Source: Haloplanus sp. HW8-1
GTDB lineage: Archaea > Halobacteriota > Halobacteria > Halobacteriales > Haloferacaceae
Reading direction: 5' to 3'
Assembly: GCF_023703795.1 (NCBI RefSeq)
Contig: NZ_CP098518.1
Span: 2,542,001 to 2,606,000 of the forward strand
Length of the DNA stretch: 64,000 nt
The position numbers and the translations under genes were made by a program. Positions 41,559 through 47,398 of this stretch are shown piece after piece. Below the pieces are notes generated by a model, which worked only from the letters and a program-made list of their open reading frames with translations, was not told the origin of the DNA and made no database searches. Each line of letters starts with the position of its first letter. Position 1 is the stretch's first letter.

Positions 41559-43787
41559 CTACTGGAAGCCGATGCGACCACCGCTTCCGCGTTCGGCGAA
41601 GCTCTCGCCGCCGCCACCCTTGAACTGTTCTTCGATACGTTCGTAGTAGTCCATAATCTCGTCGGTGATCGTGGGGCGGACGTTCTCCATCGCCTGCCGG
41701 AAGTGACGCATCTCCACTTCCTCGGCGTCGTCGTCCTCGCGGAGCGCGACCATCGCCGCCTCGCGGGCGATGCTCTCCAGGTCGGAGCCGACGTAGCCGT
41801 CCGTGATCTCCGCGATCTCGCGCAGACTCACGTCGGGGGCGAGCGGCGATTGCTGTGTGTGGATCCGCAGGATCTGCTCGCGGCCCTCCTGTTCCGGTTC
41901 GCCGATGAACACGAGGCGGTCGAACCGCCCCGAGCGGAGGAGTGCGGGATCGATCATGTCCGGACGGTTGGTCGCCCCGATGACCATGACGTCACCCATC
42001 TCTTCCAGTCCGTCGAGTTCGGTCAGCAGCTGGTTGACCACTCGCTCGGAGACGTTGTTGCCGACCTCGTTACCTCGCGAGGGGGCAAGCGAGTCGAGTT
42101 CGTCGAAGAAGATGACCGTCGGGGCCACCTGCCGTGCCTTCCGGAAGGTCTGTCGGATCGCCTTCTCGGATTCGCCGACCCACTTCGAGAGGAGCTGTGG
42201 CCCCCTGACCGAGATGAAGTTGGCGTTCGTCTCGTTGGCCACCGCCTTCGCCATCAGCGTCTTCCCCGTTCCCGGCGGCCCGTACAGCAGGACGCCCTTC
42301 GGGGGCTCGATACCCATGCGGTCGAACTTCTGGGGCGAGGAGAGCGGCCACTCGACCGCCTCTTTGACGTTCTGTTTGGGCTCCTCTAGGCCCCCCACGT
42401 CGTCCCACGTGATCTTCGGGAGTTCGACCAGTACCTCCCGCATCGCGGAGGGTTCGACCTCGCCCAGCGCGCCCCCGAAGTCGTCACGCTTGACGATCAT
42501 GCGGTCGATCAGGCTCGGCGGGATGTCCTCCTCGTCGAGATCGATCTCGGGGAGGTACCGCCGGAGCGCCTTCATCGCGGCCTCCTTGGTCAGGCTCTCG
42601 ATGTCCGCGCCGACGAAACCGTGAGTCTCGTCGGCGAGGTGATCGAGGCTCACATCGTCCGAGAGCGGCATGCCGCGGGTGTGGATCTGGAGGATCTCCT
42701 TGCGGCCCGCCTCGTCGGGGACGCCGATCTCGATCTCGCGGTCGAACCTGCCGGGGCGCCGGAGGGCGGGGTCGACGCTGTCGACCCGGTTGGTGGCCGC
42801 GATGACGATGACCTGACCCCGGGTCTCCAATCCGTCCATCATCGTCAGCAGTTGGGCGACGACCCGGCGTTCCACCTCGCCGGTTACATCCTCGCGTTTG
42901 GGAGCGATTGAGTCGAGTTCGTCGATGAAGATGATCGACGGCGACTCGTCTTTGGCGTCCTCGAAGATCTCGCGCAACTGCTGTTCGGACTCGCCGTAGT
43001 ACTTGGAGATGATCTCGGGACCCGCGATCGAGAAGAAACTCGCGGAGGTTTCGTTGGCGACGGCCTTCGCTAGCAGGGTCTTCCCCGTCCCGGGCGGGCC
43101 ATGGAGGAGGACGCCCTGCGGGGGCTCGATTCCCAACTTCTTGAAGATCTGCGGGTGTTTCATCGGGAGTTCGACCATCTCCCGGACGCGCTGGATCTCG
43201 TTTTGCAGACCGCCGATGTCCTCGTAGGTGATGCCGCCTCCGGTCTTCTCGAACCCCGAGATGGGCTCTTCCCGCAGTTCGACGTCGGTCTCCTCGGTGA
43301 CCAGACAGACGCCGTCGGGTTCGGTCTCGACGGCGATCAGCGGGATGGCCTGTCCCGGAGAGCGCATGAACGGGTGGTTCGTACTCGACATGACGGGCAC
43401 GATGTCGCGTTCGACCACCGGGCGCTTGAGGATCTGCCGTTTCACCATGCCGGCGGCGTCGGAGCCGAACTGGACGCTCGCCTCCTCCGGCGGCGCGAGG
43501 ACGAGCGTCTCCGCTTTCGTCGCCTCGGCCTTGCGGATGGTGACGCGTTCGCCGATGCCCACGTCCGCGTTCTGCCGGGTGAAGCCGTCGATCCGAACGG
43601 TGTCGGTGTTCCAGTCCTGCCGATCGGCACGCCACACCTTCGCAGCCGTCGTGTCGGCCCCCTCGATTTCGATGATATCACCTGGCGATAGCTTCAGGTG
43701 AAGCAACGTATCGGGGTCCAGTCTGGCGATGCCGCGTCCCGAGTCGTTCGGGTACGCTTTCGCCACTTCGAGTTGCACTTCGTTCAT
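41559..43787 (-). CDS. cdc48: Cdc48/VCP-type AAA+ ATPase
   Basis: A 742-residue Cdc48 (VCP/p97, VAT). An N-terminal double-psi barrel domain ([20 protein letters not shown]) is followed by two AAA modules, each with Walker [18 protein letters not shown] / [17 protein letters not shown], Walker [10 protein letters not shown] / VIFFDELDS, and arginine-finger regions; the first module opens at about residue 190, the second at about residue 460. The hexamer unfolds proteins for the proteasome or remodels complexes. C-terminus is GSGGRIGFQ. It is divergent from larC; a 185-nt promoter region lies between them. Confidence 0.97.
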
Positions 43788-43972
43788 GATGTACCCGCGA
43801 GGATGGTGATGATTCGACGGTGATGCGGGATAAGTTTGTTGTTACCCGGAATCTCGGGGACCGGATCCGCAGCGGATTGTGTCATGATATAGCATACGTC
43901 CGGGCGGTACAAACCCTTGCCGATCCGGGGGCGGTCGCAAGCCGTTTGCCCGTCGAACCCGAGCGACGGAGT

Positions 43973-45301
43973 ATGCACACGCTCGCGTTCGACGGGCGCA
44001 CGGGAGCGAGCGGCGACATGCTCCTGGCCGCCCTGGTCGCCGCCGGCGCCGATCCGTCCGTTCTCGACCCCGTCGAGGCGGCACTCGACGTTCGCTACGT
44101 GGTCGGCTCGACGACGAGAGCCGGGATCGAGGCGACCACCGTCGACGTACTCGTCGACGGGGACGGCAGTGGGGCGACGGATCGTGGGGGGACGACCGAC
44201 GACCACGACCACGACCACGATCACGATCACGACCACGACCACGACCATCACCACGACCACGACCATCACCACGATCACGACCATCACCACGACCACGACC
44301 ACGCGGAGGGATCCGGTCCCCACCGAACCTATCCGGCAGTCGTCGCCCTCGTCGAGGACATGGATCTCCCCGCCGCCGTCGAACGCGACACCCTCGCGGT
44401 CTTCCGTCGCCTCGGCGAGGCGGAGGCGACGGTCCACGGCACCGATCTCGACGACACGGCGTTCCACGAGGTCGGCGCCGACGACGCCATCGCCGACGTG
44501 GTCGGCACCTGTCTCCTCGTCGCGGACCTCGGCGTCGAACGGATCGTAACGACGCCCGTCGCGGTCGGCGGCGGCACGGTGTCGATGAGCCACGGCACCT
44601 ACCCCGTTCCGGCACCGGCGGTCACCGAGAGCCTGACCGACGCCGACTGGTCGGTCCGGGGCGGTCCCGTCGACCGGGAACTTCTCACGCCCACGGGGGC
44701 GGCGATCCTCGCCGAACTCGCCGACGGCGTCGATCACCTGCCCACGCTCGACGTCACGGCCACGGGGTACGGCGCGGGCGACGCCGACCTCTCCGACCAT
44801 CCGAACGTCCTCCGGGCCGTCGTCGGCGACGGGACGGGCGGCCTTCGCCGGGAGTCCATCTCGGTGCTCGAAACCACCCTCGACGACACCACGCCCGAGG
44901 TACTCGGAAGCCTCCACGAGTCGCTGGCCGAGGTCGGGGCACTCGACGTATCGGCCGTCCCGACGACGATGAAGAAGTCGCGACCGGGCCACCTGATCAA
45001 GGTGATCGTCGATCCGGCGGACGCCGACGCCGTCGCACGCCGTCTCGCGGAGGAGACGGGAACGCTCGGAGTCCGCGAGGGGAGCGCCGACCACCGCTGG
45101 GTCGCGGACCGCGCGTTCGAGACGGCCTCCATCACGGTCGACGGCGAGGCGTACGGCGTGGCGGTGAAAGTCGCGAGCGACGCCGACGGGACGGTCTACG
45201 ACGTGAGCGCGGAGTACGACGACGCCCTCGGGGTCGCCCGGGAGACGGGCCTCCCCGTCCGCGAGGTGTTGCGGCGGGCCGAGGCGGCGGTCCGGGACTG
45301 A
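43973..45301 (+). CDS. larC: Nickel pincer cofactor biosynthesis protein LarC, with His-Asp tract
   Basis: A 442-residue LarC. It begins MHTLAFDGRTGASGDMLLAA, has the DDTAFHEVGADDAIADVVGT core, the MSHGTYPVPAPAVTESL segment, and the C-terminal LETTLDDTTPEVLGSLHESL and TMKKSRPGHLIKVIV, as expected. LarC inserts Ni into the pyridinium dithiocarboxylate cofactor of lactate racemase-type enzymes. A special feature is the tract at residues 76-110, made of repeated Asp-His and His-His-His blocks with 20 His, which likely binds or stores nickel. LarC in bacteria is often split by a programmed frameshift; here it is a single frame. ATG 43973 starts at the conserved N-terminus. larA, larB and larE are not in the window. 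Confidence 0.9.
   Translation: MHTLAFDGRTGASGDMLLAALVAAGADPSVLDPVEAALDVRYVVGSTTRAGIEATTVDVLVDGDGSGATDRGGTTDDHDHDHDHDHDHDHDHHHDHDHHHDHDHHHDHDHAEGSGPHRTYPAVVALVEDMDLPAAVERDTLAVFRRLGEAEATVHGTDLDDTAFHEVGADDAIADVVGTCLLVADLGVERIVTTPVAVGGGTVSMSHGTYPVPAPAVTESLTDADWSVRGGPVDRELLTPTGAAILAELADGVDHLPTLDVTATGYGAGDADLSDHPNVLRAVVGDGTGGLRRESISVLETTLDDTTPEVLGSLHESLAEVGALDVSAVPTTMKKSRPGHLIKVIVDPADADAVARRLAEETGTLGVREGSADHRWVADRAFETASITVDGEAYGVAVKVASDADGTVYDVSAEYDDALGVARETGLPVREVLRRAEAAVRD
44198..44302 (+). repeat. Asp-His codon repeat inside larC
   Basis: Tandem GAC-CAC codons and 18-nt units of the form GACCATCACCACGACCAC encode a run of alternating Asp/His and three HHH blocks. The DNA repeat is prone to length change by slippage. 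Confidence 0.85.
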
Positions 45302-45338
45302 ACGACACCGTTTCCGGACTCCGTGACGAGGCACCGGT

Positions 45339-45746
45339 ATGGAGCGAACACGCGTCTCCTCGGGCACCGAGTGGGAATCGGCGGTCGGCTACTCGCGGGC
45401 GGTCCGGGCGGGCGACGAGATTCACGTCTCCGGTACGACGGCGACCGACGACGACGGCGACGTCGTCGCACCGAACGACCCCGGCGCACAGACTCGGCGC
45501 GCCCTCGCGAACGTCGAGGCGGCGCTTGCCGAACGCGACGCGTCGCTGTCCGACGTGGTGCGGACCCGCCTGTTCGTGACCGACATCGACGACTGGGAGG
45601 CGGTCGGCCGCGCCCACGCCGAGGCGTTCGGCGACGTTCGGCCGGCCACCTCGATGGTACAGGTGGAGCGACTGATCGACCCACGCTTGGTGGTCGAGGT
45701 GGAGGCGACGGCGACGGCGCCGAGGGACGACTATCGTCGCGACTGA
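45339..45746 (+). CDS. RidA/YjgF family protein
   Basis: A 135-residue RidA/YjgF-type protein, MERTRVSSGTEWESAVGYSR at the start, with the family motif GDEIHVSGTTATDDDGDVVA, then ALANVEAALAERDASLSDVV and VRTRLFVTDIDDWEAVGRAH. RidA trimers hydrolyse reactive enamine/imine intermediates from amino-acid metabolism; not all family members have the catalytic Arg. Here a candidate Arg lies in VRTRLFVTD, and PATSMVQVERLIDPRLVVEV includes the conserved end. Starts 37 nt after larC on the same strand, so it could be cotranscribed. Confidence 0.88.
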   Translation: MERTRVSSGTEWESAVGYSRAVRAGDEIHVSGTTATDDDGDVVAPNDPGAQTRRALANVEAALAERDASLSDVVRTRLFVTDIDDWEAVGRAHAEAFGDVRPATSMVQVERLIDPRLVVEVEATATAPRDDYRRD

Positions 45747-45800
45747 ACCGGTGTGGACAGCCGCTCGTACGACGTGCTGCCATCGGCTGTGAAACGACGG

Positions 45801-46553
45801 TCAATCGCTCCCTTGGCCCTCGCGGTGTTCGTCGAGGGCCTCCTCGACGGTGAGGTCGCCGGCGGCGACCCGCCGGGCGAGTCGGTCGTCGATGGTGCGG
45901 TCGTCGGTCGAGACGCGGCGGGAGCGGTCCTTGATCCGCTGGAGTTCCCCCGCCGTGGGATCGACCTCCCGCGAGTCGACCCGTTCGCCCTCCAGACGAG
46001 CGATGTTGACCGCGGCGAGTACGTCGCCCATGCCCCGAGCGCCGGTGCCGAGATACGGCGTCGTCCCCGTCTCGTCGACGAGTTCGACGGTGACGTCGTC
46101 AAGGTCGTTGACGAGACGGGCCCCCTGCAGGCGGGCGCCGTCGCCGATCCGGACCAGCGGGTCGACCGCGTCCGCGACCTCCCGGCGGACGACGTCGACG
46201 GCGTCGGAAAGTGGGACGTGGAAGGCGGCGACGACCGTCTCGCCCGAGAGGACGGCGATGCCGGGGCGGGTGCCGGGATCGACGCCGACGACGGTTCGTC
46301 CATCGCTCCCTCGGAGGAGCGCGAGCGCCTCGTCGACGGCGCGGCGCGCCTCGTCGGCCGTCGCCGTGACGCGGTCGGCGTCCGCCACGTCGGCCGCGAG
46401 GTCGTCGTCTGGCGCCGTGACGACGACCGACGCCCGGTCGGGGAGGTCGGCGTCCGGTTCGACCGTGGTGAACGCCACGCCGCGCTCCCGGAGGCGGTCG
46501 ACGACCTCGTGGTACAGCTCGAAATCCGCGGTGGCGACGACGATCACGGCCAC
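45801..46553 (-). CDS. Uncharacterised RuvC/RNase H-fold protein next to radB
   Basis: A 250-residue protein from the GTG at 46553. The N-terminal 80 residues are a small Rossmann-like domain (VAVIVVATADFELYHEVVDR). From residue about 85 comes an RNase H/RuvC-like core: VVGVDPGTRPGIAVLSG (candidate Asp92), DVTVELVDETG (Glu158 or Glu161) and GMGDVLAAVNIARLEGE (Asp177), the order of acids in RuvC/YqgF nucleases. A charged C-terminal tail has SRRVSTDD. It is divergent from radB, 122 nt start to start. Archaea use Hjc as main Holliday resolvase, so a role in recombination or RNA processing is open. The upstream start at 46610 is less likely, as it runs into poorly conserved-looking sequence. Confidence 0.68.
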   Translation of the reverse strand: MAVIVVATADFELYHEVVDRLRERGVAFTTVEPDADLPDRASVVVTAPDDDLAADVADADRVTATADEARRAVDEALALLRGSDGRTVVGVDPGTRPGIAVLSGETVVAAFHVPLSDAVDVVRREVADAVDPLVRIGDGARLQGARLVNDLDDVTVELVDETGTTPYLGTGARGMGDVLAAVNIARLEGERVDSREVDPTAGELQRIKDRSRRVSTDDRTIDDRLARRVAAGDLTVEEALDEHREGQGSD

Positions 46554-46642
46554 TCTTGGGCGCCGTGGGAGGTAAAACGTGTCGTGGTCGTCGGGAGGTC
46601 CCCTCGCCACGCTCCGCCAGTCCCCGACACGGCCCGGTGTCG

Positions 46643-46675
46643 AGGGTTTATGATCCGGAGCGACCGAGGGGGAGT
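46643..46675 (+). promoter_or_regulatory. Promoter of radB
   Basis: GGGTTTATGA at 46644-46653 is centred about 27 nt before the GTG at 46676, giving a leaderless transcript and supporting that start. Confidence 0.5.
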
Positions 46676-47398
46676 GTGTCCGAGTCAGAGCCAGCGCCAG
46701 TACCGACCGGCTGTGCCCCGCTCGACGACCTCCTGGGCGGCGGGTTCGAACGCGGGACCGTGACGCAGGTGTACGGCCCGCCGGCCGCCGGCAAGACGAA
46801 CCTCGCGCTCTCGGCGGCCGTGCAGGTCGCCGCCGCCGGCGGAACCGCGGTGTACGTCGACACCGAGGGACTCTCGATCGACCGGTTCCGACAGCTCGCG
46901 GCGGCTGTGGTCGGCGACGACGGGGACGAGGACCTGGCGGCGGTCACCTCCCGCATCGTCGTCACCGAGGCCCACGACTTCGCCGAACAGGAGGAGGCCG
47001 TCCGCGACGCCGCAGACTTCGCGCCGCGGGCGGAGCTGATCGTCCTCGACAGCGCCACCGGGTTCTACCGGCTCGAACGCACCGACGGCGACGAGGGCGA
47101 AACGCTCCGGCGAGTGGGCCGGCAGGTGACCCACCTGCTGTCGCTCGCGCGGAAACACGACCTCGCGGCCGTCGTCACGAATCAGGTGTTCACCGACCCG
47201 GACGCCGATCGGGCGCGGGCGCTCGGCGGCCACACCCTGAACCACTGGACCGGGACGGTGATCCGGCTGGACCGGTTCCGCGGCGGCAACCGCCGGGCGA
47301 CGCTGGAGAAACACCGGTCGAAGCCGGCCGGCGAGACGGCAACGTTCCGGATCACCGCCGACGGACTGGCCGCCGGCGAGGAGAGTCGGAGTCTATAG
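46676..47398 (+). CDS. radB: DNA repair and recombination protein RadB
   Basis: A 240-residue RecA-family paralog, RadB. It starts VSESEPAPVPTGCAPLDDLL; Walker A is VYGPPAAGKTNLALSA (about residues 32-47), Walker B ELIVLDSATGFYRL, and HTLNHWTGTVIRLDRFRGG is the typical C-terminal core. RadB lacks the N-terminal helix-hairpin-helix domain of RadA; it helps RadA load during recombination. The longer reading frame from 46556 is rejected, since the GTG at 46676 has the right distance from its TATA box. Stop region overlaps the end of the convergent CBS gene by 6 nt. Confidence 0.93.
   Translation: MSESEPAPVPTGCAPLDDLLGGGFERGTVTQVYGPPAAGKTNLALSAAVQVAAAGGTAVYVDTEGLSIDRFRQLAAAVVGDDGDEDLAAVTSRIVVTEAHDFAEQEEAVRDAADFAPRAELIVLDSATGFYRLERTDGDEGETLRRVGRQVTHLLSLARKHDLAAVVTNQVFTDPDADRARALGGHTLNHWTGTVIRLDRFRGGNRRATLEKHRSKPAGETATFRITADGLAAGEESRSL

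Follow-up and report, generated by a model that had tools for sequence, protein, structure and literature searches.

Which protein is encoded beside the recombination mediator gene radB in Haloplanus sp. HW8-1, and could it be a nuclease that acts in recombination or on RNA? Within the window (the whole stretch analyzed, 64,000 nucleotides of contig NZ_CP098518.1), radB lies at 46676..47398 on the plus strand (NF006861/TIGR02237, NF006861 E 3e-125) and adjoins a minus-strand gene at 45801..46547, here labeled X, for which no Pfam or NCBIfam model scored above its cut-off. An earlier sequence-only reading of positions 45801-47398, a span that takes in both X (45801-46547) and radB (46676-47398), had described a RuvC/RNase H-fold protein divergent from radB; the three motifs that it quoted are located in the minus-strand ORF, and the divergent neighbor is confirmed. 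Our results show that X is a further variant within a known fold family, and on balance we favor the view that it is a stand-alone, acid-complete, metal-dependent nuclease of the Tex/YqgF type acting on RNA or branched DNA.

Gene start, promoter region, and domain layout

The GTG at 46545-46547 is almost certainly where X truly starts (product MIVVATADF...), since the orthologues share this first Val/Met of (M)IVVAT and a TATA-like element lies upstream. This start, from which all residues are numbered here, gives a protein of 248 amino acids with acids at D90, E155/E159, and D175. The sequence-only reading had picked out the right acids and numbered them two too high, because it took as start an upstream GTG two codons before that at 46545-46547; its "Glu158" was off by one more. 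A longer ORF from 46610 was rejected as an over-extension, as the orthologue starts and the TATA-like element, aligned in six genus members, place the start at 46547.

The starts of X and radB are separated by 128 bp on opposite strands (46548..46675), and the alignment of the six genus members revealed two TATA-like elements conserved within the genus, namely, TTTTAC on the minus strand for X (46572-46577, 25-30 nt upstream of its start) and TTTATGA on the plus strand for radB (46647-46653). The two genes thus appear to have separate back-to-back promoters. A scan for sigma-70-type promoters gave zero matches, the expected outcome for an archaeon. The hexamer GTGTCG (plus strand) flanks both promoter-like elements (46572-46584 and 46638-46653) and is kept in the six genus members, and it is possibly a shared control element.

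AlphaFold2, run on X with 60 input sequences (pLDDT 85.6 for the full protein), placed a complete RNase H core at residues 84-183 between a small N-terminal beta-alpha domain (residues 1-80) and C-terminal helices, and a separate domain-only run returned the same core (pTM 0.79 for the domain alone). The N-terminal domain (46308..46547, minus strand) has a beta-alpha-beta layout according to predicted secondary structure and conservation, with T6, F9, and T44 invariant and D8 near-invariant. The Pfam scan of these 80 residues gave no convincing family match; a weak Csa3_N Rossmann match appeared in 4 of 29 X members (E 0.07). The C-terminal helices (residues 199-245; 45813..45953, minus strand), seen in the AlphaFold model, contain conserved R210, LARRVA, and GELT..EA. 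This stretch (LARRVA.GELT.DEAL) recalls short helical domains of the SHOCT/VbhA kind, the Pfam matches being very weak (E about 0.1).

Fold and nearest relatives

The core, at residues 84-187 (45987..46298, minus strand), follows the order b1-b2-b3-aA-b4-aB-b5-aC of the RNase H-like superfamily, as seen in both AlphaFold runs and by Foldseek, with strands at 85-90, 96-101, 104-110, 131-135, and 153-157 and helices at 113-124, 139-148, and 173-183. The superfamily's acid at the end of strand 1, as well as further conserved acids, is present in 60 X sequences. The RNase H fold of the earlier reading is therefore borne out by AlphaFold2 and Foldseek.

When the domain was searched against the PDB with Foldseek, the Tex structures 3bzc (E 1.4e-5) and 2oce (E 1.2e-4) were the sole matches below 1e-3, with probability 1.00 and 21-22% identity. 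The full-length model instead brought type III pantothenate kinases to the top, with TsaB also high, which raised membership in the sugar kinase/actin-like (ASKHA) group. This fold was not upheld by the domain-only run, which ranked Tex first, at least two orders of magnitude ahead of TsaB; the full-length kinase and TsaB matches had TM values below about 0.3 (query-normalised) and E values above 1e-3, and X has just one RNase H-like domain. We treated the kinase matches as shared-fold noise and consider an ASKHA protein very improbable. Profile searches of PDB sequences with X yielded for the most part repeat-protein artefacts (DARPins), along with weak matches to MOC1.

Profile comparison by hhalign with eight diverse bacterial Tex domains pointed the same way as the domain search. 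Alignment A2 of X matched them with an E of 7.7e-6 over 123 columns, and the domain alignment A4 scored 31.8, the highest of 100 column shuffles reaching 23.9. In single-sequence comparisons, X aligned over 83-123 columns with Tex, 20-47 with DUF460, 18-26 with YqgF, and about 10 with RuvC, and a whole-domain profile alignment was obtained with Tex only among these four. The YqgF-like domain of Tex (YhgF; e.g., PDB 3bzc), also found in Spt6, is hence the best structural match to X, colinear over 113-123 columns, and the two share the motifs DPG (strand 1), IGxG (strand 4), and xxExG (following strand 5), as well as an AVxIAR helix. Tex is nevertheless a large multidomain protein (~770 amino acids in E. 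coli), whereas X combines one RNase H domain with N- and C-terminal parts of its own.

Similarity to YqgF itself is weak at the profile level (E 0.002-0.006, about 89 columns; the E. coli YqgF sequence in the set is identical to PDB 1nmn), and the YqgF family model PF03652 matched none of 29 X members at E<10. In the comparison with RuvC, YqgF, and COG2433 that the earlier reading had suggested, Tex is nearer to X than any of these. We are highly confident of the RNase H fold and of the Tex/YqgF lineage.

Conserved acids

Alignment A3, comprising 60 diverse X sequences, many of them just 33-43% identical to the window protein, shows D90, E155, E159, and D175 to be invariant (60/60) and D158 to be present in 58/60, a degree of conservation that, as judged from this alignment, is far beyond chance at such identities. 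The acids proposed earlier are thus conserved. D90 (codon 46278..46280, minus strand, like those that follow) ends strand 1 (VGVDPG), E155 (46083..46085) lies within strand 5 (VELVDE), E159 (46071..46073) ends that strand, and D175 (46023..46025) starts the last core helix (GDVLAAVNIA), the last two also being placed by hhalign.

The proposal that these acids stand in RuvC order has to be given up. RuvC, which has the same fold and the DPG motif, carries its second acid, a Glu, at the end of strand 4, and strand 4 of X (VRIGxG) holds no conserved acid in the 60 sequences, residue 136 being H, D, N, or R; X as RuvC proper is ruled out by this acid position, and its closest solved structure is Tex. 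YqgF and Tex have the second acid where strand 5 ends, the third being absent from Tex (PMC3985635, PMC9601230). The positions described for YqgF/RuvX, an acid at the end of strand 5 and an Asp in the last helix (PMC9601230), are those of E159 and D175. E159 aligns with the conserved Glu of Tex (VSEAG), in the same place as the YqgF acid, and Tex has no acid at the place equivalent to D175. With no acid in strand 4, E159 at the end of strand 5, and D175 kept, X therefore has the layout of YqgF/Tex, third acid included.

The same three-acid layout (strand 1, strand 5 end, last helix) is that of YqgF/RuvX, a putative pre-16S rRNA nuclease (PMC9601230, PMC3985635), from which X differs by its extra N-terminal domain and the extra invariant Glu in strand 5. 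The equivalent triad of Deinococcus radiodurans YqgF, D22, E106, and D122, is required for Mn2+-dependent RNase activity (PMC9601230).

An archaeal candidate was DUF460/COG2433 (PF04312), with which X has a GIDPG..GIAVL region in common (E 4e-7 over 41 columns between profiles). This likeness covers the first three strands only and stops after strand 3; the second acid of DUF460 is in strand 4 (the D of ATDV, 30/30), where X has none. PF04312 scored 17.4 bits on X against a cut-off of 28, and DUF460 exists as a separate single-copy gene in the same genome, its open frames ranging from roughly 400 to over 700 amino acids. X as a DUF460 member is ruled out on these three grounds, in keeping with the earlier statement that the two are distinct.

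The full set of metal-binding acids, which Tex has lost, suggests that X is probably a working nuclease. An inactive scaffold binding nucleic acid or protein, as thought for the YqgF domain of Tex/Spt6, would fit the nearest likeness of X, since Tex is without the third acid and its nuclease activity has not been demonstrated (PMC3985635); the invariance in 60 sequences of all three acids together with E155 makes such a scaffold improbable.

Pairing with radB and the ancestral gene block

In 26 of the 30 loci from relatives, radB lies upstream of X on the opposite strand within 1.5-kb flanks. Among the best 80 named X loci, a divergent radB is found in 41, namely, all 30 haloarchaeal loci (in four of which radB lies 1.6-4.0 kb from X) and 11 non-haloarchaeal ones, which include Methanocella and two other families. 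Family f23 (locus L072), outside the named set, adds a further lineage. The divergent pairing is thus ancient, as it spans haloarchaea, Methanocella, and three further families. No radB was seen near X in Methanoperedens, ANME-2, UBA261-type, and f28 genomes, some on short contigs; in Methanoperedens and ANME-2, X has a conserved neighbor (cluster c1) that resembles a membrane protein and gave no functional clue.

The pair belongs to a longer block. In the window (41559-47398), radB and X are followed by a LarC-type nickel insertion protein (43820..45301, plus strand; PF01969 E 4e-123) and a Cdc48-type AAA ATPase (41559..43787, minus strand), both assigned to the block by synteny, and the order radB, X, LarC, Cdc48 recurs in families f18, f31, and f23, where DapL-LysA-DapF-like genes precede radB (block loci L072, L097, L102, L120-L122, L124, L126, L127, L129, and L155). 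Five genomes without X still have radB next to the CBS gene, and three of the five also have it directly beside Cdc48. This common order, together with the retention of radB neighbors where X is missing, indicates that radB and X belong to an ancestral block. A long His/Asp repeat (DHDHDHDH...) in the LarC-type protein plausibly binds nickel.

Within the block, radB and X are the tightest pair: LarC lies within 6 kb in just 7 of 30 haloarchaeal named loci, and of five Methanocella-type loci checked, four retain radB-X and have neither LarC nor Cdc48 within reach. This favors a functional tie without proving one. RadB is near-universal irrespective of X (288/295 genomes), and several haloarchaeal genera keep radB without X. 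The linkage foreseen by the sequence-only reading is thus real and ancient across haloarchaea; given the longer ancestral block, the persistence of radB on loss of X, and the separation of the two in Methanoperedens and ANME-2, it is a weak hint of a role in recombination.

Haloferax volcanii RadB is HVO_2383, a LarC family protein is HVO_2381, and Cdc48a is HVO_2380 (PMC7776575, PMC8305020, PMC10470531), so the position of HVO_2382 between HVO_2381 and HVO_2383 makes it the probable orthologue of X. HVO_2382 entered a gene-neighborhood survey as an uncharacterised protein of interest (PMC10470531), and our search of open-licence papers found no functional assignment or experimental data for HVO_2382 or X.

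These neighbors bear on the possibility that X, like bacterial YqgF, is a nuclease of RNA processing or RNA decay, with radB as a mere ancestral neighbor. The acids of X stand where those of YqgF stand, and the D. radiodurans enzyme is an RNase without junction activity (PMC9601230); LarC and Cdc48 share the block, and the RecJ3/4-aRNase J nuclease complex has Haloferax Cdc48a among its associated proteins (PMC10470531); and X occurs without a nearby radB in Methanoperedens and ANME-2. Against this, the direct similarity to YqgF is weak and several genera have no X, so that X cannot be a universal rRNA maturation enzyme. We regard this explanation as rather unlikely.

Distribution and relation to Hjc

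Within Halobacteriota, to which the survey extended, X was found in 44 of 60 relatives and in 64 of 295 genomes across the phylum (E<=0.001, two of the 64 being marginal partial matches). GTDB r220 holds 321 X loci, the best 80 named of which come from haloarchaea, Methanocella, Methanoperedens, ANME-2, and other Methanosarcinales/Methanocellales-type MAGs. Most haloarchaea have an orthologue, but all sampled members seen of genera g3, g14, g22, and g24 of the window's own family are without one, which indicates that X is dispensable; the g14 matches (E about 1e-3 to 1e-4) and long-frame matches at profile positions 79-123 are most likely DUF460 proteins. A viral origin was rejected, as phage records and IMG/VR viral contigs yielded no relatives. 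Plasmid records gave one relative, on a haloarchaeal secondary replicon. The radB-X region occurs twice in Natronorubrum bangense JCM 10635, on the chromosome and on an 828-kb "plasmid unnamed1" (L157, L158), with identical match statistics, proteins of equal length, and the same radB gap, which reflects either a duplication or an assembly matter.

Could X be an alternative four-way DNA junction resolvase that works with RadB/RadA and replaces a missing Hjc? Outside the haloarchaea, Hjc was detected in 0 of 23 genomes with X versus 55 of 219 without it, in counts made by reading result tables, in which relatives are non-independent. The divergent radB would suit such a role, as would the RuvC-like structural and profile matches of X: among similar structures in a viral library, RuvC-like resolvases, nucleases, terminases, and unnamed proteins predominate, many of the named ones bearing a RuvC-like resolvase or nuclease annotation, and 27 of 29 X members were matched weakly by phrog_1770, "Holliday junction resolvase" (best E 6e-6). 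Moreover, some YqgF proteins cut junctions (PMC9601230). However, Hjc is present in all 53 sampled haloarchaea, with or without X, and the acid layout is that of Tex/YqgF, not RuvC. Counted by family, the Hjc pattern lacks significance, with six X families lacking Hjc and most other families lacking both, so that, relatives being non-independent, it is a lead only. We therefore consider a resolvase of this kind unlikely. The more specific proposal of a structure-specific nuclease of Tex/YqgF descent that would resolve branched recombination intermediates with RadB and replace Hjc in Methanocella, Methanoperedens, and ANME-2 seems to us unlikelier still. Only 108 of 295 phylum genomes gave a match to the Pfam Hjc model (PF01870), and a review states that Hjc is present in all archaea (PMC7776575).

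Predicted function and significance

Our preferred reading remains that of an acid-complete nuclease of Tex/YqgF type. D90, E159, and D175, possibly joined by E155 or D158, would bind Mg2+ or Mn2+, and this site would hydrolyse phosphodiester bonds, making X an active nuclease, unlike the binding-only domain of Tex; we hold such activity to be reasonably probable. The substrate would most likely be RNA or structured nucleic acid arising in DNA repair and recombination, and X would serve as an accessory, non-essential factor. As to its cellular role, an involvement in recombination or repair can be proposed only tentatively, and one in RNA processing unrelated to repair is doubtful.

With this work, a conserved hypothetical protein that stands beside the much-studied radB and has no family model acquires an identity that can be tested. 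It also raises the question of the junction-resolving nuclease in the many Halobacteriota genomes without detectable Hjc. If our reading is true, X is an acid-complete archaeal relative of a domain whose activity was lost in Tex and Spt6, and as such it would bear on how the catalytic site was lost there.
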